From a virus: 27,955 nt of DNA. How positions within the stretch are numbered: position 1 is the stretch's first letter; each line of letters opens with the position of its first letter. Positions 2,619-27,680 of this stretch are shown here, one piece after another. The position numbers were made by a program, and so were the translations under genes. The stretch is from IMG/VR virus record IMGVR_UViG_3300025133_000489, positions 1 to 27,955 of that record; one strand, given 5' to 3'. The notes beneath the pieces were generated by a model. The model saw only the letters and a program-made list of their open reading frames with translations, was not told the DNA's origin and did no database searches.

Positions 2619-3198
2619 GTTTGTTCCAGAGGAGTTGATAGACGTTTACTCCAAGGGAGAATTACAAGGAGGCCGTGGATATCATTTTCCAGATGAAAAT
2701 GGAGAGTTGGTTCGGGTGAGTAAGACAGACGGGAAAACCCTGCAGGAACATCTGGACGGTATCGAATACATCCGAGAACTGGCAGAGCGAGGAACCAAGA
2801 TTCTGCCTCCTTTACTCCGTAGAGAACCGAACGGCAGATTCAAGAAGTTGGACGGGTTCAAACGCATCCTCGGAATGCGTGCAGCAGGTATGACGATGCT
2901 TGAATGCTTTGTCTGCGAGCCGGAGGACATGGGTAAGCAGTTCTGGTATGATGGCAGGAAGATAACATGTAAAAGTGGAGGACAACCTTACAGTTCCTTC
3001 ACCAAAGCAGTTGAATATGGAGAAGACGACAAGAGCCAAAAGCGAGGAGGGAAGATTCAATATCTGTATAATGGAGAAAGTCTAAGGTTGGAATTTCGAG
3101 AGAACATCCATCTCCATTGGGGTAAGGCTGGACGATATCGTTTGGGACTTGGAATAACTGATTTCAAAATTTTAGCGGAGGCGTTTGCAAATGGCTAA
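2608..3198 (+). CDS. ParB/sulfiredoxin-like domain protein
   Basis: The protein has a ParB-type segment: ILPPLLRREPNGRFKKLDGF (65-84) running into KRILGMRAAGMTMLECFV (85-102), matching the family's strand, ligand-binding DG-x-(H/K)-R loop and helix. The ParB/sulfiredoxin fold includes nucleotide-dependent enzymes (CTPases, ATP-dependent sulfiredoxin, free-serine kinase) as well as DNA-binding partition proteins. The C-terminal half has a conserved-looking HLHWGKAGRYRLGLG (169-183) that I do not recognise. There is no helix-turn-helix partition module and no ParA neighbour. Because it lies inside the DNA-modification cassette, a kinase or other nucleotide-dependent role on modified bases is more plausible than partition, but this is inference. 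AAGGA precedes the ATG. Confidence 0.6.
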   Translation: MRREFVPEELIDVYSKGELQGGRGYHFPDENGELVRVSKTDGKTLQEHLDGIEYIRELAERGTKILPPLLRREPNGRFKKLDGFKRILGMRAAGMTMLECFVCEPEDMGKQFWYDGRKITCKSGGQPYSSFTKAVEYGEDDKSQKRGGKIQYLYNGESLRLEFRENIHLHWGKAGRYRLGLGITDFKILAEAFANG

Positions 3199-3430
3199 GG
3201 TGGCAAAACGAGTTTACTCAAAGATCATACCGGAATCGTGTGACCGACATGCTAACCGGATCGAGATCTACAAAACCAGCGGACACAAGTACCATGTGAA
3301 TTTTAGGAACCTGCAAATCAGGCTCTCCAGAAAAGAGTTTGAAGAGTGGAAGAAAGGATTCGCTCAGGCTCTTGTAAAGTTAGGCGACAGAATGGAACAC
3401 GACACACTCCCAGAAGTGAAGGAAGACTAA
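3191..3430 (+). CDS. Hypothetical protein, 79 residues
   Basis: I do not recognise this protein. It is small and basic, with a possible beta-rich middle (RIEIYKTSGHKYHVNFRNLQ) followed by an amphipathic helix (RKEFEEWKKGFAQAL). The ATG at 3191 is preferred over an upstream in-frame TTG at 3185 because GGAGG sits at normal spacing. It overlaps the ParB-like gene by 8 bases, and its TAA overlaps the radical SAM start (TAATG), so it belongs to the modification operon and may be an accessory subunit or substrate-delivery protein. Confidence 0.6.
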   Translation: MAKVAKRVYSKIIPESCDRHANRIEIYKTSGHKYHVNFRNLQIRLSRKEFEEWKKGFAQALVKLGDRMEHDTLPEVKED

Positions 3431-4395
3431 TGCCGAAAAGATCAAAACCAGTGCAGCAGGAATCTCCGTTTTGCCTTCAGATAGAACTGGTGGAAGGTTG
3501 TAACCTACGATGTTCCTTCTGCGGTTTGAACGGCATTCGAGGTAAGGAAAACGAGTTCAAGCAGATGTCTCTGAGACATGCTGAAGATATTGCTGATCAG
3601 ATTGCAGAACTTGGTTGGAATCCTCGTCTTGAATTTGCTATGCACGGCGAACCGTCTGCTCACAGAAAGTTGGACACGGTCCTCAGGAAGTTTCGAAGCA
3701 GACTTCCCAATCACCACATGATGATGACCAGTAACGGATATGGATTTCTGTCGGACATTACTCTGGTTGATCAGGTTCTTGAATCGGTGAACGTGTTGGC
3801 TCTGGATTCATATGATGGTATCAAGATCGTTCCCAGGATTCTTAAACGGTACGAAGGGAAGCATGATGTCCGGTACTATCCGAAAGATAAGACAGCGAAT
3901 CCCCACAAGAGACGGAAACCCTCTGAGCGGTTGCTGGTTGTCATTAAGGACATCGACTCTGCAACCAGTGGCAACCATGCAACCCTGAACAACCATGCAG
4001 GAGCAGGAGCTCCAAAGAACGACAGACTCCAAGGGAAGCGTTGTGCGAAACCGTTCAGGGAGATGTCGATCCGGTGGGATGGGAATGTCGCAATTTGCTG
4101 TAATGACTGGCGTGGAGTGTACAAGTGTGGATACGCAGTCGACGAAGGGATTGAAGAGATCTGGAACGGTCCAGAGTTCGTGGCAGCACGGAAGAAACTG
4201 TACAACGGTCAAAGAGACTTCGGTCCCTGTGATGGATGTGACGCTGCTTCTTACCGGACAGGTCTCTTACCAGATAAGATGGGAAAGCAGGAGCTCAGCG
4301 GTCCATCTGAGTCCGATTTGGTCATTATTGAGGAAGCCTGTGCTGGCAGATCTTACACGGAACCTGTGTTGCGAGACTGGGAATCCAAGACGTAA
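3430..4395 (+). CDS. Radical SAM / SPASM domain protein
   Basis: Radical S-adenosylmethionine enzyme. The cluster motif CNLRCSFC gives C24, C28 and C31, which bind the catalytic 4Fe-4S cluster; MHGEP (71-75) matches the GEP SAM-binding motif. The C-terminal part has a SPASM-like cysteine set for auxiliary clusters: C205, C223-C224, C233, and C267/C270 in GPCDGC, with the typical WDGNVAICCNDW core and an IEEIWNG helix. The start at 3430 is in TAATG overlap with the preceding gene. SPASM enzymes usually act on peptides, but radical SAM isomerases have been linked to thymidine hypermodification in phages. Position at the end of the modification cassette suggests it rearranges or cross-links a group attached to the base. 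The exact reaction is unknown. Confidence 0.85.
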   Translation: MPKRSKPVQQESPFCLQIELVEGCNLRCSFCGLNGIRGKENEFKQMSLRHAEDIADQIAELGWNPRLEFAMHGEPSAHRKLDTVLRKFRSRLPNHHMMMTSNGYGFLSDITLVDQVLESVNVLALDSYDGIKIVPRILKRYEGKHDVRYYPKDKTANPHKRRKPSERLLVVIKDIDSATSGNHATLNNHAGAGAPKNDRLQGKRCAKPFREMSIRWDGNVAICCNDWRGVYKCGYAVDEGIEEIWNGPEFVAARKKLYNGQRDFGPCDGCDAASYRTGLLPDKMGKQELSGPSESDLVIIEEACAGRSYTEPVLRDWESKT

Positions 4396-5379: not shown

Positions 5380-5880
5380 ATGGTTTCGAAAATGACGTTC
5401 AAAGAGCGGTACAATGCAAGCGAGGACGATAGGTTCTGGTCCTACGTGCAAAAGACAGACGAAGGATGCTGGGAATGGTCGGGAGGACTCTACAGTTCTG
5501 GATATGGTCAATTCCGAGGTAGTGAAACCAGAGCACATCGGATGGCCTTCGTTTTGACAAAAGGAAAGATTCCAAAGGGTCAAATTGTTTGCCACAGTTG
5601 TGACAACAAAAAGTGCGTGAACCCTGATCATTTATTTCTGGGAACGACACAAGACAACATTGATGACAAAGTTTCCAAAGGTAGACAAGCACAGGGAGAG
5701 ACACAACACCTTTCAAAGTTTACTGAGAAACAAGTGTTGGAAATTCGATCAAGATATGAGGGCAGACAGTTGAAGATCAGAGATCCTGTTGATGGGATCA
5801 AAGCATTAGCAAAAGAGTTTGGAGTTTTTGAACAAGCTATTCGAAGTATCATAAACCGATCAACTTGGAGACATATTTAA
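5380..5880 (+). CDS. HNH endonuclease (homing-type, HNH_3 family)
   Basis: A free-standing HNH nuclease of 166 residues. The core CHSCDNKKCVNPDHLFLG (71-88) carries H72, C74, C79, N81 and H84 for metal binding and catalysis, preceded by WEWSGGLYSSGYGQF (31-45) and the RAHRMAFVL helix (51-59), as in HNH_3 proteins. A C-terminal segment (136-160, DGIKALAKEFGVFEQAIRSI) looks like the DNA-binding helix-turn-helix common in these enzymes. The ATG at 5380 is chosen because GAAAGGAAC lies just upstream; the open frame extends to 5299 without a comparable site. It sits directly before the thymidylate-synthase homologue (TAATG overlap), a common kind of insertion site for homing endonucleases. Its target is unknown. 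Confidence 0.85.
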   Translation: MVSKMTFKERYNASEDDRFWSYVQKTDEGCWEWSGGLYSSGYGQFRGSETRAHRMAFVLTKGKIPKGQIVCHSCDNKKCVNPDHLFLGTTQDNIDDKVSKGRQAQGETQHLSKFTEKQVLEIRSRYEGRQLKIRDPVDGIKALAKEFGVFEQAIRSIINRSTWRHI

Positions 5881-7001
5881 TGTTCAAATTTGACAGCGTT
5901 AACACTGCGTTCCATGGATTGATAAAAAGTATTCAAGACGGAACTATTCCAACCAATGAAAGATCCAGCCGGAACGGGAAAGTCCTTCAGGTTCAGGAAC
6001 CTGTGACAGTCTGTTTTAATAATCCGAGAAATCGGGTTTTGTTTAATCAAACGAGAGACGCAAATAGTTTCTTTCATCTGTTCGAATCTTTCTGGATGTT
6101 GGCAGGAAATAACGACGTTGCATCCCTGGATCTGTACAACAGTCAGATGAAGCAGTACAGCGACGATGGAACAACATTCCATGGAGCGTACGGATACCGT
6201 TGGAAGAACTGGTTTGGATACGATCAACTTGATCTGATCGTTGCAGAGTTGCAGAAAGATCCAACGTCACGTCGCTGTGTTCTCTCGATGTGGGATGGAA
6301 GCGATGCCTGGACACATGGACCAGACGTTGAAGGTAATTCTGGACCGAAAGAACGAACACCGTTCACCGACTGTTCTGATTTGTACGTTGCAACCCATGG
6401 AGGCAAAGACGTTCCGTGTAACCTCTCTGCACTGTTTTCAATTCGACAGGAGAGAAGGGGAAGCGGAACGGTGGACAGTGCCAGACCGATTGAATATCTG
6501 GACATTCATATCTACAACCGAAGCAATGATCTGATCTGGGGATTGCTTGGAGCGAACGTGGTCCACTTCAGTTTCCTGCTCGAATACATGGCGAACAGAA
6601 TCGGCGTCAAGGTTGGGCGACAGTATCACACGTCGAACAATCTTCATATCTACACAGAGAACAACAGCGGGTTTGATGCTGATGCTCTGTTGAGGGACGA
6701 GTACAGCGGAGTTGAAGATGTTGTTCATCATGATCCACTTGCAATGGACGACATTTCGGAAGACGACCTGCAGGAATTTGTACTTGTCAATGGGAGCATG
6801 GAAGTTTGCTGCTCTCATTACGATAGTGATTACATAAGCTATGTTGTTCAACCGGCGATGAATGCTTTCAAGTGTCATAAAGCTAGAGAGTATTTCAGGT
6901 CCAGAGAATACCTGAGCCGGATTGACTGTGATGACTGGAAGTTTGTGTGTGAGAACTGGATCGATAAACGAGAAACCAATTGGAGGAAGAACAATGACTG
7001 A
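5880..7001 (+). CDS. Thymidylate synthase family protein, probable dUMP hydroxymethylase
   Basis: Transfers a one-carbon unit from methylenetetrahydrofolate to C5 of dUMP, giving dTMP or, in hypermodifying phages, 5-hydroxymethyl-dUMP. Family features seen: FHGAYGYRW (101-109), the arginine pair R131-R132 in TSRR, the nucleophile C180 in DVPCN, the nucleotide-binding YNRSNDLIWGLLGANVV (212-228) with N226, which favours uracil over cytosine, and LHIYTEN (255-261) with the conserved His and Tyr. Canonical TS has PCH; here it is PCN, and the protein is longer (373 residues) than cellular TS (about 264). The start at 5880 has GGAG nine bases upstream. With the pyrophosphorylase-like and glycosyltransferase genes in the same genome, hydroxymethyl-dUMP synthesis is the favoured role, but plain thymidylate synthesis is not excluded. 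Confidence 0.82.
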   Translation: MFKFDSVNTAFHGLIKSIQDGTIPTNERSSRNGKVLQVQEPVTVCFNNPRNRVLFNQTRDANSFFHLFESFWMLAGNNDVASLDLYNSQMKQYSDDGTTFHGAYGYRWKNWFGYDQLDLIVAELQKDPTSRRCVLSMWDGSDAWTHGPDVEGNSGPKERTPFTDCSDLYVATHGGKDVPCNLSALFSIRQERRGSGTVDSARPIEYLDIHIYNRSNDLIWGLLGANVVHFSFLLEYMANRIGVKVGRQYHTSNNLHIYTENNSGFDADALLRDEYSGVEDVVHHDPLAMDDISEDDLQEFVLVNGSMEVCCSHYDSDYISYVVQPAMNAFKCHKAREYFRSREYLSRIDCDDWKFVCENWIDKRETNWRKNND

Positions 7002-7879: not shown

Positions 7880-10118
7880 ACGGACTGAGAAGCAACCGGA
7901 GAACCTGAGACCCTATACGTTCCATGGAGTAGAGTTGGATTGGTATGAAGAAGATCAAAAGGTGGATTGTCCTTTCTGTGGGAGTCATAGTTTCTATGTG
8001 AGAACTGACACTGGTGTTGCTCGCTGCTGGTCATGTAACATCAGCGAGAGTGGAACAGGTATGAACGCAAGTAGCTTCATCCGTCTGTTCCATAAGAAGA
8101 TGTTGGACATGACGACAGATTTTCATCGGGAACAGTTGCGAGTTGATAGAAAGTTGGTCAGCGTCGATGTGATTAGAAAGTTGGAGTTAGCGTTCGACGG
8201 ACAGCACTGGTTGATTCCTGGTTACAATGCTGACCTGAAGATGACCCAGTTGTATCGGTACGCAGATTTTGGACAGGGTAGGATTGCGTATCCAACTCCG
8301 GGGTTAGGTGCTGCCATGTTCGGTTTGAACATGTTCAACTCAAAGATAAGGAAGGTGGATATCGTTGAAGGTGTTTGGGATCTGGCATCAATGGCAGAAG
8401 TGTATGAACTTGGATTGGTCAACCGGAATGTGATTGGGTTACCCGGAGTTACAACTTTCAAAGATCCATGGACGAAATTGACTGGTGGTTCTGAGGTGGT
8501 TCTGTGGTTCGATAATGACCATCCCAAAGAGGATGGCACTCTGAAGGGAGGGGTTGTCGGTGTTAAGTTCGTCGGATCGAAGTTGTCGAACTGCCAGGAA
8601 CCTCCAGAGGATCTGCAGGTGCTGAAGTGGGGGGACTCTGGTTATGATCTGGAGGTCGAAAGTGGGGCAGACGTTCGCGACGTAATAACGGGGAAGATAT
8701 CGCCGGAACCGTTCGAAAATGGACACAGTTCTGGTCTGCAACCGATTTCCCTGCTAAACAAACCCGAAACAGGCTCCTCAAAGGCTCTGGGAGGCCGTTT
8801 AAGGCGTTTTAATGCTCTACGCAGCAGGTTGGGTGGGTTGCCAGAAGAATGGCTCCAGAAGGGCAAGAAAACCCGCAAAGATAAAACGCGGGAGTGTAAC
8901 GATTTCCAGCAGGTTCTGGACGCCTGGAAAGCGTGCTTCCGGTGGCGAGAGGATCTGGAGCACGTTCTGATATCGATGCTCGCTGTCGTGATCTCGACTG
9001 AGCAACTTGGCGATCAACTTTTCCTGCAGGTAATAGGTGATGCTGGTTCGGGGAAGACTCGTTTCTGTGATGCGTTCCTAACGTCGCCAACCTGTCACGC
9101 TCTGGAACATCTCACAGGGTTCCATTCTGGTTGGAAAGGTGAAGACGGTGAGGACTATTCTCTGATTGCTCGTATCGATAGGAAGACATTGATAACGCCT
9201 GAAGGAGACGTGTTGATGTCGTCTCCCAACTTCGCTCAGATTATGTCGCAGCAAAGAAGGATCTTTGACGGTACGTCTGGAGCATCATTCAAGAACCAGA
9301 AAGAGGACAGCAGGTACACAGGGTTGAGAACGCCTTGGATCATTGCCGGTACACCAACACTGATGGACAGCGATCAGAGCAGGTTGGGGGACAGGTTCCT
9401 GCGTGTTTGTATTGCAACTCCCGAACATGCAGAAAGAAGAATGATTCAACGTGCTGTTGCTCGTTCAGCCTTGACCTCTGTGATGCAGACAAGCTGTGCA
9501 GTCGATAAGACACTCACTGAAAGTAAGATGACTGAAGCATACCAACTGACAGGTGGATACGTCAGCTACTTGAGAGACAATGCCGAGAAACTTATCCAAC
9601 GGTTGAAAGTAGATGAGGAAGAACTGTTCGAACAGTGTATGGACTTCGGTGAGTTTGGGGCAGACTTTAGAGCAAGACCGAATCCCGAAGAGAAGAAGGA
9701 AAGCAATGACACCAAAGAACTCCCCACAAGACTGACCCATCAGTTCCTGCGGATGGCGTGTTGTGCTGCTGCATCAGTAGGGGAAACAGAGATCTCCAAG
9801 CGTTCCTGGGATGTGACACGTCGTGTGACGGTGGATACTTCGAAGGGTAGGACCTACGATATCGCTCAGACGTTGTTCGCAGAACAGGACACAGGGTTAA
9901 ACATGAAGACTCTGTATAACAGAGTGAACGCAACAGAGTCAGAGATAAGGAAGCTGATTCGGTTCATGCGTTCCATTAAGGTCGTTCGTAAGGTAAGCGA
10001 CTCTGAGAAATCCAAATCTGGTAGAATAAAGAAACGGGGAACGGTCTCGTATAAACTCACTGACCGCGTTTACAAACTGATGACCAGAGTGTTGGGAGAA
10101 GACAGTGCAGGCGACTGA
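7872..10118 (+). CDS. DNA primase-helicase (zinc finger, TOPRIM, ATPase)
   Basis: Replication protein that would lay down primers and unwind the fork. The N-terminal zinc-binding module uses C33, C36, C52 and C55 (CPFCGSHS...ARCWSCN). The TOPRIM-like catalytic region has VDIVEGVWD (about 162-170) with the acidic glutamate and VVLWFDNDHP (about 209-218) with the DxD pair. A superfamily 3/D5-like ATPase follows with Walker A GDAGSGKT (389-396). The C-terminal 100 residues look like a winged helix. The start at 7872 (MPKR) is preferred to 7815 because the upstream part overlaps the zinc-ribbon gene. At 748 residues it is a full-length single-polypeptide primase-helicase. The downstream SprT-like gene overlaps by 14 bases. 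Confidence 0.87.
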   Translation: MPKRTEKQPENLRPYTFHGVELDWYEEDQKVDCPFCGSHSFYVRTDTGVARCWSCNISESGTGMNASSFIRLFHKKMLDMTTDFHREQLRVDRKLVSVDVIRKLELAFDGQHWLIPGYNADLKMTQLYRYADFGQGRIAYPTPGLGAAMFGLNMFNSKIRKVDIVEGVWDLASMAEVYELGLVNRNVIGLPGVTTFKDPWTKLTGGSEVVLWFDNDHPKEDGTLKGGVVGVKFVGSKLSNCQEPPEDLQVLKWGDSGYDLEVESGADVRDVITGKISPEPFENGHSSGLQPISLLNKPETGSSKALGGRLRRFNALRSRLGGLPEEWLQKGKKTRKDKTRECNDFQQVLDAWKACFRWREDLEHVLISMLAVVISTEQLGDQLFLQVIGDAGSGKTRFCDAFLTSPTCHALEHLTGFHSGWKGEDGEDYSLIARIDRKTLITPEGDVLMSSPNFAQIMSQQRRIFDGTSGASFKNQKEDSRYTGLRTPWIIAGTPTLMDSDQSRLGDRFLRVCIATPEHAERRMIQRAVARSALTSVMQTSCAVDKTLTESKMTEAYQLTGGYVSYLRDNAEKLIQRLKVDEEELFEQCMDFGEFGADFRARPNPEEKKESNDTKELPTRLTHQFLRMACCAAASVGETEISKRSWDVTRRVTVDTSKGRTYDIAQTLFAEQDTGLNMKTLYNRVNATESEIRKLIRFMRSIKVVRKVSDSEKSKSGRIKKRGTVSYKLTDRVYKLMTRVLGEDSAGD

Positions 10119-17933: not shown

Positions 17934-18229
17934 GCGACGAACCTGTTGACATGGAAGTAGGTGCGGAAGATCTGCTAAGACATAAACCCGTTCCATTGGG
18001 AAATCTGCAGTCGTTCATGGAGGAGGTGGAGTTGGTACGCAATACCGATTCCTGTTGTGACCTTGAACTACAAACCAAGTTCATAAACCAAAGACACGAT
18101 TTCAACCTGGAAGACATAACCCTTCCAGCTCCTTACTCCATGACGTTCAAGGGGAGCAAGACCACAGTCCATTGGCCTCCTAGTGAACGATTCTTGCGAG
18201 CGAAGAAAACAATTGAGGGGATGACATGA
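17930..18229 (+). CDS. Hypothetical protein, 99 residues
   Basis: Starts in ATGA overlap with the minor head gene and ends in ATGA overlap with the nuclease gene. Acidic N terminus (MSDEPVDMEVGAEDLLRHK), then a beta-like C-terminal part (LPAPYSMTFKGSKTTVHWPP). Not recognised. Confidence 0.65.
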   Translation: MSDEPVDMEVGAEDLLRHKPVPLGNLQSFMEEVELVRNTDSCCDLELQTKFINQRHDFNLEDITLPAPYSMTFKGSKTTVHWPPSERFLRAKKTIEGMT

Positions 18230-18699
18230 AACCTAATTTCTTTCTGATTTGTGTTGCCGTGTTTGGAGCCACCTTTGGATATGGAGTGATAATAAGCGAT
18301 GAGGTTGAAGATATTCAAAATCGCTATCGGGAACCTCCTGTTTCTCAAAGTCTGGAGTTTGAACCTTACGTCTATCAAGCGGAAGTGGTCTCTGTCTATG
18401 ATGCTGACACCGTAACACTGGACGTGGATTTAGGGTTCAACATTACGACAGAGCAGAAGTTCAGACTGTACGGAATCGACGCATGGGAGATGAGAGGTGA
18501 CGAGCGTTCAAAGGGTACAATTGCAAGAGACTGGTTGAGGGGTCAGATACCTGATGGATCAACTGTGTACATCAAGACAGAGAAGGACAAGCAAGGAAAG
18601 TATGGACGTTACTTGGCGACCATCCACAAAGACATCGGGGAAGGATCTCTGAATGTTAAGTTGGTGGAATTAGGACATGCCGTTTTCAAGGAGTACTGA
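18226..18699 (+). CDS. Membrane-anchored or exported staphylococcal-type nuclease
   Basis: SNase (TNase) fold endonuclease, cutting DNA or RNA with Ca2+. All catalytic positions are present: the DADTVTLD strand (59-66) with metal-binding aspartates, R80 in KFRLYGID, D85, E88 in WEMRGDE and R128 in GKYGRYLA. An N-terminal hydrophobic stretch FFLICVAVFGATFGYGVII (5-23) after MKPN is a signal anchor or signal peptide without a clear cleavage site, so the enzyme probably acts in the periplasm or at the membrane. It is 157 residues, with a short linker 24-48. Encoded in the head operon with coupled neighbours. It could degrade host or competing DNA at the envelope; that is inference. Confidence 0.85.
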   Translation: MKPNFFLICVAVFGATFGYGVIISDEVEDIQNRYREPPVSQSLEFEPYVYQAEVVSVYDADTVTLDVDLGFNITTEQKFRLYGIDAWEMRGDERSKGTIARDWLRGQIPDGSTVYIKTEKDKQGKYGRYLATIHKDIGEGSLNVKLVELGHAVFKEY

Positions 18700-23891: not shown

Positions 23892-24290
23892 ATGTCAGTC
23901 TCAGAAACATTCGAAGGCAAACTGAAAGAACAACTGGAAAACCGAATCACCAGCATCATCCAGGAGAAGGATGGTGAGCAGGTTGAAATCAAGGGTTCTT
24001 TCATCGCGATCATTCTGCCAATCCTTATCCAACTTATGTCTCAGTGGATGGATGGATGTAACGACACTCCAGAACGTGCTGCAAAGCGTGTCAAGCGAAT
24101 GGGAGTGTGGACTCGAAACAACCTGATCAAAGGTATTCGGTCCGAGCCTGTGTTGAACCCAGTCGCTATGGAGTGTAACGATTCTGTCAAGGCAGTGATC
24201 GAGGAAGCGACTGTGGAAGAACTTACAGCGATCAACAAAGAGCACGCTGAAGAGTCCATCAACTGGACACCGTTCGGAGGTGTCAAATGA
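23892..24290 (+). CDS. Hypothetical protein with hydrophobic helix
   Basis: 132 residues. A charged N-terminal helix (KLKEQLENRITSIIQEKDG) precedes GSFIAIILPILIQLMSQWM (35-53), which is hydrophobic enough to be membrane-associated. The remainder is helical and basic then acidic. AAAGGAAC precedes the ATG. It overlaps the next gene by 4 bases (ATGA) and is the first member of the exported-protein run. Confidence 0.6.
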   Translation: MSVSETFEGKLKEQLENRITSIIQEKDGEQVEIKGSFIAIILPILIQLMSQWMDGCNDTPERAAKRVKRMGVWTRNNLIKGIRSEPVLNPVAMECNDSVKAVIEEATVEELTAINKEHAEESINWTPFGGVK

Positions 24291-25114
24291 GAACCCTCCT
24301 ATTCATTGCGTGCATGGTTGTTCCTGCGTGTGCTTACGCTCAGGCAAGTGCTGTTATCACAGGACCAGAGAAAGCTAACCTCGGAGATCTGGTGATCCTG
24401 TCTTCATCAGGTTCCACAGGTACTGCAACTGAATGGAGATTGGTCAATAGTGAAAAAGCATACTTGGCTCTCCAGGGTCAATGTGTCTTCGCTTCAGGCA
24501 CTGCTGGAAATTATGTGTTCGTCCTATCGGTTGCCGATTGCGACGACCTTGATGGAGCTTCGGTCTCGGTTGCAGTTCATACCGTTACTGTCGGTAATCC
24601 TAAACCAACTCCGGGTCCGCACAATCCAGACGTTCCTGTTATTCCAGAGCCTAAACTTCCAGCCTGTTCCAAGGCTATTTTCGACAGTATGAAAACTGTT
24701 GATTACAGAGGGGACGAGGTTCAAACTCTTGCGAAGAACATCAAGAACATCGCAGGGAAGGCAGCCGGATTATCCTGGACTCCTCGACAGATGAACGAGG
24801 AACTAGGGAAGATCAACTCTTCCTTTAATGACGACGACACCAAAGCGAGATGGAATGACTGGATTGTAGTGTTCGCAGATTGTCTCAAGGATGCTAAGAA
24901 AGACAGTCAGCGGAACGAAGCTATTTCAATCTTCATGGAGATCGCAGAAGGAATGGAAGAGTACCTGAAGTGGAAAGCAGCAGGCGGAACAACTTCGTTC
25001 TCATCCCCTGCTCCAACTTCTGGTTCTCTGGCAGACGTTCTCAACGCTATGAAGAATTCAGTTGGCGGTCTGAGGAACGATCTTAACTCCATCAAAAAGG
25101 AGTTAGGTGAATGA
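24287..25114 (+). CDS. Secreted protein with Ig/PKD-like domain
   Basis: 275 residues. A classic Sec signal peptide is seen: MR, hydrophobic TLLFIACMVVPAC, and a cleavage site AYA-Q (after A18). Residues 20-101 look like one Ig/PKD-like beta-sandwich (ITGPEKANLGDLVILSSSGS near the start; YVFVLSVADCDD near the end). A Pro-rich linker (103-125) leads to a helical C-terminal half with four to five helices. No enzyme motif. Coupled by ATGA overlaps to both neighbours. It may bind host envelope or pair with the following peptidase. I do not recognise the full-length family. Confidence 0.7.
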   Translation: MRTLLFIACMVVPACAYAQASAVITGPEKANLGDLVILSSSGSTGTATEWRLVNSEKAYLALQGQCVFASGTAGNYVFVLSVADCDDLDGASVSVAVHTVTVGNPKPTPGPHNPDVPVIPEPKLPACSKAIFDSMKTVDYRGDEVQTLAKNIKNIAGKAAGLSWTPRQMNEELGKINSSFNDDDTKARWNDWIVVFADCLKDAKKDSQRNEAISIFMEIAEGMEEYLKWKAAGGTTSFSSPAPTSGSLADVLNAMKNSVGGLRNDLNSIKKELGE

Positions 25115-26061
25115 CCTTTCAGATCAAACCTGAAGATTCTGGTTGGCTTGCTCCAGACCTGCGAACACGCGGAGTCCAGAAGGAAGTTGATCAGGTAATG
25201 TCTACCATGCCTTTGATGACTTCTGAAGGGGAAGCTATCAGAGGGAGTTGGAATGGTGAGACTACTCGACTTGACCAGATCCTCAAAAAACTGGCTGGAT
25301 ATTATCCAATTGTTCGACAACTGATTGGAGACTGTGTTTCCTTCGGTTGGGGTAAAGGAATCATGGTCACGCTCGCCTGCGACATTATTGTCAGAGGTGA
25401 GGAGGAGAAATGGCCTGGTCACGAGATCTGTACAGAATGGATATATGGAACTTCCCGTGTTGTCGCTGGTCGTGGTCGACTTGGTAACAGTGACGGTTCT
25501 GTCGGTGCTTGGGCAGTACAGAGCACGTCACCAGGAGGTCAGGGGACGCTTCTGCGGAAGGTTTACATCGCAGGCGGTACAACGTTCGACCTGTCGAAGT
25601 ACGATCCCAGACGGTCGAAGACGTGGGGACACCGTAGCCTTCCGCTGGAGCTCTTGGAGCCAGAGGGCGACAAACACCCAACATCTCAGAAATCGGCTCT
25701 TGTGGGGTCATTTGAGGAGGCTGCAGACGCTATTCACAACGGGTACGCAGTGCCAGTCTGCAGCAATCAAGGTCTGACAGATCGCAGAGACGCTCAGGGA
25801 TTCGTCAAAGGTTCTGGCAGATGGAATCACTGTATGGTGTTCGTTGCAGTTCGGGGAGATCGTCCCGGTCTGATGGTTGATAATACTTCATGGGGAGACT
25901 GGGTCAGTGGTCCTGCTCCAGACGACATTCCAAAAGGATGTGCATGGTTGGACGCTAAGACCTGCGACAGGATGTTGAAACAGGACGACAGTTACGCAAT
26001 TCCAGGGTTCAAAGGTTTTGAAAATAGATCGGAGAATTTCCAATGGAAACCATTCGGATAA
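25111..26061 (+). CDS. Papain-like (C1-type) cysteine peptidase
   Basis: 316 residues with the residues of a papain-fold active site in order: Q70 and C75 in RQLIGDCVSFGWG, H240 in GRWNHCMVFVAV, and N258 in DNTSWGDWVSG, the last resembling the papain N-S-W-G motif. No signal peptide is visible, unlike the flanking gene products. In phages such proteins could act in virion maturation, tail function or cell-wall attack. The coupled signal-peptide gene upstream could be an inhibitor or partner. The fold is inferred from the spacing of these motifs only; peptidase activity is untested. Confidence 0.7.
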   Translation: MTFQIKPEDSGWLAPDLRTRGVQKEVDQVMSTMPLMTSEGEAIRGSWNGETTRLDQILKKLAGYYPIVRQLIGDCVSFGWGKGIMVTLACDIIVRGEEEKWPGHEICTEWIYGTSRVVAGRGRLGNSDGSVGAWAVQSTSPGGQGTLLRKVYIAGGTTFDLSKYDPRRSKTWGHRSLPLELLEPEGDKHPTSQKSALVGSFEEAADAIHNGYAVPVCSNQGLTDRRDAQGFVKGSGRWNHCMVFVAVRGDRPGLMVDNTSWGDWVSGPAPDDIPKGCAWLDAKTCDRMLKQDDSYAIPGFKGFENRSENFQWKPFG

Positions 26062-27173
26062 AACCACGATTGATTTTCCTGGCTCTGATCTTTGGATTGA
26101 TCTCTGTTCAGGGTTGCGAACTGAAGGCAGACGAGTGGACAACATTATTCGGAACATCCAACCACGTATACACAGCGGAGGATGTAACGTTAGTGGATTA
26201 CGGAACAGTATGGTGTAATCCGTGCAGGCAAATGAAGCGAGACGTTTTTCCAAAGCTGAAGGGGATATGTGAAGTCCATCCTGTCGACGCTGATTCTCTT
26301 TCCAAAAGTGAGAGGGAAGAAAGAGGGATAACTCATTACCCAACATTGAAGTTGATTGTAAGAGATCCAGAAGGAGTATGGAGACACCTTCCAAGATCCG
26401 GCAGCACTGCGAACGGTGTCAGCAGAACTGAATTCGTTCAGTGGGTTGGATACACCAGTCTGGACAAGATCAAAACAGAAGTCAACAGAGTTCTGAAAGA
26501 ACTAAACTCCAATGTCTCGAAAGGTTCTCCCGCTGTCGAATTCAAAGAGACTCCAGAACGCTCGTTCAAGAACAAACCTCCTCAAGTAAAGGTCGCCTAT
26601 GAAACCACAGAACTTGTGAAGATCCCTGGTTCAGGTTGGAACGAAGGGAGAACAGCGTGCGGAGATAAAACCTGTTCAATGTGTTACTCACAGTACATAA
26701 CTCAGACTGTCACCAAATACAGAACGGAGGATGCAGGTCAAGCTAACTGTCCACAGGAAGTCGTTGACAAGATGCTTAAATCCTTAAACGTGAAAGAAGG
26801 TGATCATCTACTGGATATTGGATGCGGGGACGGCAACATTCTCAGGACTGCCGTCTCCCGCTATGGATGTACAGGGATTGGAATCGAGATTGATCCAGTC
26901 AAAGTAAAGCAGGCCAGAGAACTTATTGAAAAGGAGGGGATGTCAGACCGGATTGTGATTATTGAGATGGATGCTGCACTGTTCAAGCCTGAAGATTATG
27001 GAGTGACGTGTGCAGTCGCTTATCTCTATCCTGAGACATTAGAGAAACTCCTTCCGATGCTTGAACCATTATCCAGGTTTGCATCAGCCTTCCACGATGT
27101 TCCAGGGTTAGAAATGTCAAAGATTGACAAAGTCTATTTGCGGAAAAACAACTTCGCAAATTTATTCCCATGA
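26043..27173 (+). CDS. Exported thioredoxin-methyltransferase fusion protein
   Basis: 376 residues with two domains. After a basic N terminus, a hydrophobic segment (10-22) ends at VQGC (22-25), possibly a lipoprotein site at C25. A thioredoxin-fold domain follows with WCNPC (57-61) and the cis-proline loop THYPT (97-101, P100). Residues about 110-235 form a linker with C206, C211 and C214. The C-terminal class I SAM methyltransferase has motif I LLDIGCGDGNIL (256-267), GIGIEIDP (278-285), D310 and AYLYPETLEKLLPML (326-340), most like lysine-methyltransferase (FAM173/aKMT) sequences. Exporting a SAM-dependent domain is odd. GGAGA 7 bases upstream fixes the start; it overlaps the peptidase gene by 19 bases. 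Confidence 0.8.
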   Translation: METIRIKPRLIFLALIFGLISVQGCELKADEWTTLFGTSNHVYTAEDVTLVDYGTVWCNPCRQMKRDVFPKLKGICEVHPVDADSLSKSEREERGITHYPTLKLIVRDPEGVWRHLPRSGSTANGVSRTEFVQWVGYTSLDKIKTEVNRVLKELNSNVSKGSPAVEFKETPERSFKNKPPQVKVAYETTELVKIPGSGWNEGRTACGDKTCSMCYSQYITQTVTKYRTEDAGQANCPQEVVDKMLKSLNVKEGDHLLDIGCGDGNILRTAVSRYGCTGIGIEIDPVKVKQARELIEKEGMSDRIVIIEMDAALFKPEDYGVTCAVAYLYPETLEKLLPMLEPLSRFASAFHDVPGLEMSKIDKVYLRKNNFANLFP

Positions 27174-27207: not shown

Positions 27208-27393
27208 ATGTCTGTCAAAAAGGATAAAGACAGTGATCAAGAATCAAATGAATCTGAAGAGTCTTCAAGATGGTCTCTCGCTGAAAAGATTGCTTCCAAG
27301 ATCACAGGCAAGCAATTCACAATCATATTCATCGTGATCATTGTGGCATACGTCGCCATTGAGATCACCAAACTAATAAAGGAAGCGGAGTAA
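27208..27393 (+). CDS. Small membrane protein, 61 residues
   Basis: A charged, Ser/Glu/Asp-rich N terminus (about 1-30) is followed by one transmembrane segment FTIIFIVIIVAYVAIEI and a short charged tail. The ATG at 27208 has GAGGA upstream; a longer frame start lies inside the preceding gene. TAATG overlap with the next gene. Holin or holin-partner is possible but not shown. Confidence 0.65.
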   Translation: MSVKKDKDSDQESNESEESSRWSLAEKIASKITGKQFTIIFIVIIVAYVAIEITKLIKEAE

Positions 27394-27680
27394 TGCCTGT
27401 CATCACATTAACGTTGGTTCAGTCGTTGATTCTTATTTTCGGACTAGCTGTTGCTTTCTTTGGACGGGATTACAGTCTAAGGAATCGAGGATCCTGTCGA
27501 AAAGCGTTTGCTCTATTCTCGGTTCTCTTGGTTATAACTCAGTTCAGCTATCTCACCAATGTTCATGCTGAACACGTCGTCTGTATTACGGAAGCTCCTT
27601 CTGACGTTGAAATGCTTCCTTGTGAAGAAGAATTTATTTCCGTTGGGTTGGACTTTCCAATTCATGCTGTGCAAAACTAA
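27393..27680 (+). CDS. Membrane protein, 95 residues
   Basis: Two hydrophobic segments, ITLTLVQSLILIFGLAVAFF (4-23) and AFALFSVLLVITQFSYL (38-54), separated by a basic loop (RDYSLRNRGSCRK), then an acidic soluble C terminus. By the positive-inside rule the loop is cytoplasmic and both termini face outward. It is coupled to the previous small membrane protein by TAATG; the pair might be lysis or superinfection-exclusion proteins, but no motif shows it. Confidence 0.65.
   Translation: MPVITLTLVQSLILIFGLAVAFFGRDYSLRNRGSCRKAFALFSVLLVITQFSYLTNVHAEHVVCITEAPSDVEMLPCEEEFISVGLDFPIHAVQN

Follow-up and report, generated by a model that had tools for sequence, protein, structure and literature searches.

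P0001, a gene of a virus from the IMG/VR collection, joins a predicted export signal, a thioredoxin and a methyltransferase in one protein. We consider it about an even bet (probability roughly 0.5) that this protein is exported and probably fixed to a lipid or membrane anchor, that it is a two-headed enzyme made by a tailed phage of planctomycetes, and that it works as the partner of the peptidase encoded upstream in a late cassette directed at the envelope and perhaps at lysis. The reading starts from properties that we computed: the export signal, the folds, the conservation of motifs, purifying selection and synteny with peptidases.

The window, that is the whole stretch of DNA analysed, is an IMG/VR record of 27,955 bases. 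It encodes portal- and capsid-related proteins (PHROGs) and a primase, a gene content that identifies it as a tailed phage. Genomic relatives of the upstream peptidase, P0002, lie mostly in Planctomycetota, with a few in Bacteroidota (Mucilaginibacter, Flexithrix) and one in a Proteobacteria MAG; on the basis of these homologues we assume a planctomycete host. The Mucilaginibacter relatives of the papain-like protein (L077, L078; 40–44% identity) suggest that related prophages exist outside the planctomycetes. Elsewhere in the window, positions 938-2618 and 5865-7001 hold a TET-associated-type glycosyltransferase (PF20691), a second possible glycosyltransferase and a thymidylate-synthase-like protein, possibly for DNA base hypermodification, and 3427-4395 encodes a Radical SAM/SPASM protein. 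At 18226-18699 the window encodes a Staphylococcal-nuclease-like protein that has a hydrophobic segment near its N terminus; in another contig (L182:5818-6168) a gene resembling it comes after the fusion gene.

The fusion gene and its parts

P0001 is a single ATG open reading frame with only one plausible start, preceded by GGAG at about 10 bases and overlapping the stop of the preceding gene. Its parts are as follows.

26043..27173, + strand: P0001, exported (predicted) thioredoxin–methyltransferase fusion gene, 376 aa in a single frame
26043..26117, +: putative Sec/lipoprotein-type signal segment, residues 1-25, METIRIKPRLIFLALIFGLISVQGC (sequence, modelled helix and family-wide signal-peptide test)
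26163..26450, +: thioredoxin domain, residues 41-136 (PF00085 above cut-off)
26211-26225, +: WCNPC of the thioredoxin domain; C58 and C61 invariant among the fused proteins aligned
26340-26342, +: candidate cis-proline P100, placed from sequence and invariant among the fused proteins aligned
26583..26732, +: predicted beta-hairpin linker, residues 181-230 (AlphaFold2, low confidence, pLDDT about 55)
26658-26684, +: CGDKTCSMC in the hairpin linker, residues 206-214, a conserved Cx4CxMC motif
26745..27170, +: aKMT-like class I SAM methyltransferase domain, residues 235-376 (Pfam, alignments, sequence and structure matches)
26814-26834, +: methyltransferase motif I, DIGCGDG, a conserved column
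26886-26888, +: acidic residue E282 (post-I), a conserved column
26970-26972, +: D310 of the methyltransferase, a conserved column

The first-pass annotation had read a signal- or lipoprotein-like N terminus, a WCNPC thioredoxin and a complete class I methyltransferase in one frame, and sequence, Pfam and AlphaFold2 bear it out. Its reading of the architecture and of the SAM pocket stands, as does that of an exported N terminus; it had missed CGDKTCSMC (206-214). The N terminus has a positive n-region, a hydrophobic stretch and a lipobox-like VQGC; this is a loose match, and LVGC in the relative L128 is canonical. Pfam places Thioredoxin (PF00085) at residues 41-106 with 25.0 bits against a gathering cut-off of 23.5. 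An AlphaFold2 model built from a 22-row alignment has a helix at residues 8-23 and pLDDT values of about 90 in the thioredoxin block and about 97 in the methyltransferase block; the hairpin strands that carry the cysteine motif (181-193 and 218-230) are modelled with low confidence. Like other thioredoxin/PDI-like proteins, the domain has the fold, WCxxC and a proline that should be cis; it differs from them in being a weak sequence match, predicted to be exported, and fused to a methyltransferase.

What kind of methyltransferase is this? Pfam models match residues 220-338 (CMAS, 9.6e-13; Methyltransf_25, 1.1e-8), and Foldseek places the model closest in the PDB to Salinibacter 5bxy with bound SAH (1.7e-11) and to Sulfolobus aKMT 5fad (2.4e-10) and 5fa8 (SAH/SAM). 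A sequence search agrees that aKMT-type enzymes are closest. Against NCBIfam NF041081 (aKMT), P0001 scores 47.2 bits, below the cut-off of 200, and its host relative L098 scores 160.8 bits. Best sequence, profile and structure matches all lie with the aKMT/FAM173 enzymes (ATPSCKMT, ANTKMT), with which P0001 shares motif I and the acidic post-I residue. By sequence and model the domain is an aKMT-like class I fold with its SAM-binding residues complete, and lysine methylation is suggested by homology. A methyltransferase domain lacking its SAM pocket, which had been named as fatal to the annotation, is not what we find. The known aKMT/FAM173 members are cytoplasmic or mitochondrial, whereas P0001 is predicted to pass through Sec and is fused to a thioredoxin and a cysteine motif. 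Cyclopropane synthase, suggested by the CMAS match, was dropped as an identity because structure and NCBIfam point to aKMT. A PADLOC match to mad2 (2e-16) was also dropped, since it spans the common methyltransferase core only; when mad2 is represented by its NCBIfam model, the score is 16.5 bits, where 720 would be required. PHROGs offered no useful name.

Recurrence and export of the family

Single-sequence searches of IMG/VR with P0001, and with the capsid protein, gave no match. Alignment A4 of the exported methyltransferase domains retrieved 35 viral loci, among which thioredoxin, a Cx4CxMC-type motif and methyltransferase occur together in L128, L129/L130 and L131. Scanning with the fused proteins brought in L238 and L245 (thioredoxin N-terminal), L237 (thioredoxin C-terminal, the opposite end to P0001) and the thioredoxin-less L239 and L244. 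The thioredoxin of L237 scores 41.7 bits in Pfam; that of L245 is short and has no Pfam thioredoxin match. The domain search that the first-pass annotation had proposed thus yields at least six further lineages. Its remark that no standard phage protein has this architecture holds for annotated phages, where P0001 finds generic, partial methyltransferase matches only, but uncultivated phages show recurrence. The recurring architecture is new within a little-known family of exported methyltransferases.

The near-identical pair L129/L130 has a dN/dS of 0.37 overall and 0.15 in the thioredoxin part, and values below 1 in three close pairs indicate purifying selection. Could a frameshift or a faulty assembly have joined two genes, as the first-pass annotation had allowed? 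We found nothing in favour of such an artefact and give it practically no credence: since the same fusion stands in independent contigs and the L129/L130 pair is under purifying selection, a frameshift origin is excluded in practice.

Many phage members have signal peptide, CxMC and methyltransferase without thioredoxin (L135, L141, L146 and L151 among them), and in L132, L137, L139, L140 and L144 the cysteine motif follows the methyltransferase domain. The window protein, L237 and L239 share [IV]xG[TS]GWx5Cx4CxMC[YF]xQY with small departures. The strict Cx4CxMC pattern occurs in 20 of 6221 open reading frames, 17 of them exported methyltransferases and 2 the gene upstream of one; the CGDKTCSMC-type motif is conserved in, and nearly specific to, this family. 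Genes directly upstream of the exported methyltransferase in two contigs (L149:2147 and L152:2464) carry Cx4CxMC alone, as if split off. In a tree that leaves out the later-found L237, L238 and L245, 16 phage methyltransferase rows form one clade (support 95/92); the five thioredoxin-fused rows group with moderate support (87/52), and four of them with 100/93. The contig of L143 (L186) has two different exported methyltransferase genes, at 3062-3727 and 8757-9545.

Relatives also occur in planctomycete genomes. Of a first sample of 392 Planctomycetota genomes across the phylum, only 8 contain the strict family. When these genomes were searched with P0001, nearly all open reading frames among the best matches began with a signal peptide or lipoprotein signal. 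These comprise a signal plus one domain (L098), a sulfatase fusion (L099), two genes in tandem (L101), double domains (L103, L104) and TIGR03000-type partners (L102, L089), with L100 also among the best matches. The family is concentrated in one planctomycete class, where it is common: of 398 genomes of this class, 162 match the phage-type profile at E<=1e-12. About 100 of these genomes are at or below 1e-20, and the matches in the roughly 60 between 1e-12 and 1e-20 may include other methyltransferases. A signal peptide is present in 33 of the 34 best host open reading frames; the exception is a fusion whose 5' end is truncated in the locus. Of 18 second-tier frames, 14 pass the signal-peptide rule described below. 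Host copies are fused to sulfatase, PQQ-propeller or TIGR03000 domains; in L099, L193, L203, L235 and L202 we see sulfatase or PQQ-type propeller fusions, or four methyltransferase domains per protein. They share the methyltransferase family and export with P0001. The host copies read differ in having neither thioredoxin nor CxMC motif, and the phage copies form a separate clade.

Is export a property of the family or an error in one gene? We applied one fixed signal-peptide rule to all candidate starts of family open reading frames and of control methyltransferases. Thirty of the 35 distinct family frames at >=76 bits carry a signal peptide; among about 36 other, weaker-scoring methyltransferase frames none passes with ATG and one with GTG. 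Because the family passes the rule and other methyltransferases do not, export is a family trait, a habit of the lineage rather than an error. The puzzle of SAM supply raised by the first-pass annotation is therefore real and wider than one gene.

SAM, the methyltransferase cofactor, is normally found only inside cells, and we know of no supply of it outside the cytoplasm and of no periplasmic pool. The puzzle would vanish if the N-terminal helix were a signal anchor that kept both enzyme domains on the cytoplasmic side, with its ample SAM, an orientation that the first-pass annotation had offered. The FAM173-type relatives are indeed membrane-anchored with access to SAM (PMC5828452). We nevertheless judge reverse topology improbable. 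Positive residues precede the helix, nearly all the best planctomycete relatives have signal peptides, relatives bear cleavable-looking or lipobox signals (LVGC in L128), and several are fused to extracytoplasmic-type sulfatase, PQQ-type propeller or TIGR03000 domains. Ribosomal proteins, also proposed as substrates, are unlikely for an exported enzyme.

Whether methylation truly occurs outside the cytoplasm is the main uncertainty. The exported fold may instead have ceased to methylate and now serve an envelope protein as a binding module for SAM-like molecules, nucleotides or other ligands. This would suit the lack of any known periplasmic SAM pool, and motif I is altered to GCED in one phage copy (L245) and reads EPGPGDGR in some host copies. 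However, most copies keep motif I, the acidic residue after strand 2 and D310, and the best structural matches are SAM- or SAH-bound enzymes; we regard loss of activity as rather unlikely.

Peptidases and other neighbours

The genes around P0001 are listed here.

23892..24290, +: small protein that spans the membrane once and by its sequence is at best holin-like; small membrane-protein genes stand there in several related loci
24287..25114, +: putative exported protein (signal peptide in sequence) with a PKD/Ig-like N-terminal part, judged by eye, and a helical C terminus; no Pfam family match
25111..26061, +: P0002, candidate papain-like cysteine peptidase, no signal peptide (GDCVSFG, WNHC and N-x-SWG; alignment; weak plant cysteine-protease match)
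27208..27393, +: small protein with a single predicted membrane span, just downstream of the fusion gene
27393..27680, +: small protein with two hydrophobic segments

P0002 overlaps the fusion gene by 19 bases. It has no Pfam or PHROG match itself and no match in the annotated phage collection; sister upstream genes match Peptidase_C1. Searching with it matched 73 viral contigs, and the signal-less papain-like family A5 is widespread in planctomycete phages (window 25111-26061 and 73 viral loci).

Among the tabulated loci, 16 of 28 methyltransferase genes have a peptidase no more than two genes upstream, in many cases overlapping the next gene or at most 43 bases away. It is papain-like, of differing subgroups, in the window, L240 (L128), L241/L242 (L129/L130), L185 (L137, with one gene between), L139, L140, L237 and L245, and beyond the tabulated 16 also in L142. 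An HExxH metallopeptidase is directly adjacent in L132 (where it bears PG_binding_1), L238 and L244, and within two genes in L239, L147, L149 and L152. L141 has a subtilase farther upstream, and the phage members L135, L145 and L151 have no adjoining peptidase. Pfam backs several of these assignments. Two of the synteny peptidase profiles were built from genes first noticed by position; papain profile A5 and the L147, L149 and L152 matches are free of that bias. That unrelated peptidase classes swap at one position suggests that proteolysis and the exported methyltransferase are functionally paired.

Ahead of the pair there are often genes for small membrane proteins and for exported PKD-like proteins; in L002 and L006 the papain-like gene is likewise preceded by a counterpart of the 24287..25114 gene. 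The exported partner is modular, since the place of the fusion gene is taken by an exported thioredoxin without methyltransferase in L002/L188 and by an exported protein without either in L006. The exported thioredoxin at L002:7115-7780 and the thioredoxin-less exported protein at L006:7936-8334 have a common, LSxxxxxLHxxxH-like C-terminal module.

The order of small membrane proteins, signal-less hydrolase and exported protein resembles that of phage lysis cassettes (holin, endolysin, exported spanin). Here, by contrast, the hydrolase is a peptidase of varying class and the exported protein an enzyme rather than a spanin; the small membrane proteins would be the holin candidates, in records that may be fragments. 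Amidase_2, Phage_lysozyme, SLT and Amidase_3 are absent from 23 records, nearly all of this set, which is consistent with the peptidase as lysin, although the contigs may be incomplete.

Would the same genes serve purposes other than lysis? The pair might remodel the envelope, modifying receptors or surface proteins, with the peptidase doing the same by cleavage, so as to block superinfection or keep new virions off debris. Export and peptidase pairing suit this equally well and no lysis phenotype is known, but the peptidases lack signal peptides, the cassette stands beside late structural and small membrane-protein genes, and canonical lysins were not found in the 23 contigs; we hold remodelling to be rather unlikely. 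Still less probable is a virion-associated enzyme acting at entry on the envelope of the next host: the gene does lie between head-connector-like genes and a tail-fibre-like gene, but a Sec signal is unexpected in a virion-packed protein.

Possible action at the planctomycete envelope

How might a late envelope cassette work? We infer its substrate, SAM source, timing and role in lysis from the features above. Late in infection P0001 would be exported through Sec and held on the envelope side of the membrane. Its WCNPC thioredoxin would reduce or reshuffle disulfides in cysteine-rich envelope proteins, and its methyltransferase would methylate envelope proteins, either at lysines as in aKMT/FAM173 relatives or at freshly freed thiols. 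Thiol methylation would block re-formation of disulfides and make reduction irreversible; it is a speculation drawn from the partnership of thioredoxin and cysteine motif. Opening of the membrane would then release the signal-less peptidase to cleave the loosened proteins and aid lysis, and the same opening could supply SAM.

Planctomycetes have cysteine-rich YTV wall proteins (PMC8567305) and a protein sacculus with disulfide bonds (PMC2754498). Among the enzymes, FAM173B, a homologue of aKMT, methylates lysines and has a putative transmembrane segment (PMC5828452), and the unrelated METTL7B methylates thiols (PMC7921093). Phage exit could use a peptidase and a disulfide reductase, which favours a late envelope cassette. 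Peptidoglycan that lysozyme can attack is present in planctomycetes too (PMC4432640), and a lysin for a proteinaceous wall is therefore not strictly required. Since many relatives have no thioredoxin, reduction cannot be the shared core function, and host copies cannot depend on a phage holin for SAM. A broader proposal, which we advance tentatively as less probable than the cassette itself, is that planctomycetes methylate proteins SAM-dependently outside the cytoplasm through a dedicated exported family, from which phages made a peptidase-coupled, sometimes thioredoxin-fused cassette that reduces, methyl-caps and cuts disulfide-linked envelope proteins.

Searches of the open-access literature found no earlier description of exported or periplasmic methyltransferases or of planctomycete phage lysis, and no described lysis system for the planctomycete envelope, although one may have been published elsewhere. 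Activity of the exported enzymes would mean that SAM, or something equivalent, gets into the periplasm of planctomycetes, which standard models of bacterial physiology do not provide for; with so many host copies, cultured strains allow a direct test. As for the phage cassette, it hints at a way in which phages may take apart the unusual planctomycete envelope with its many cysteines, and would be a first handle on lysis there.
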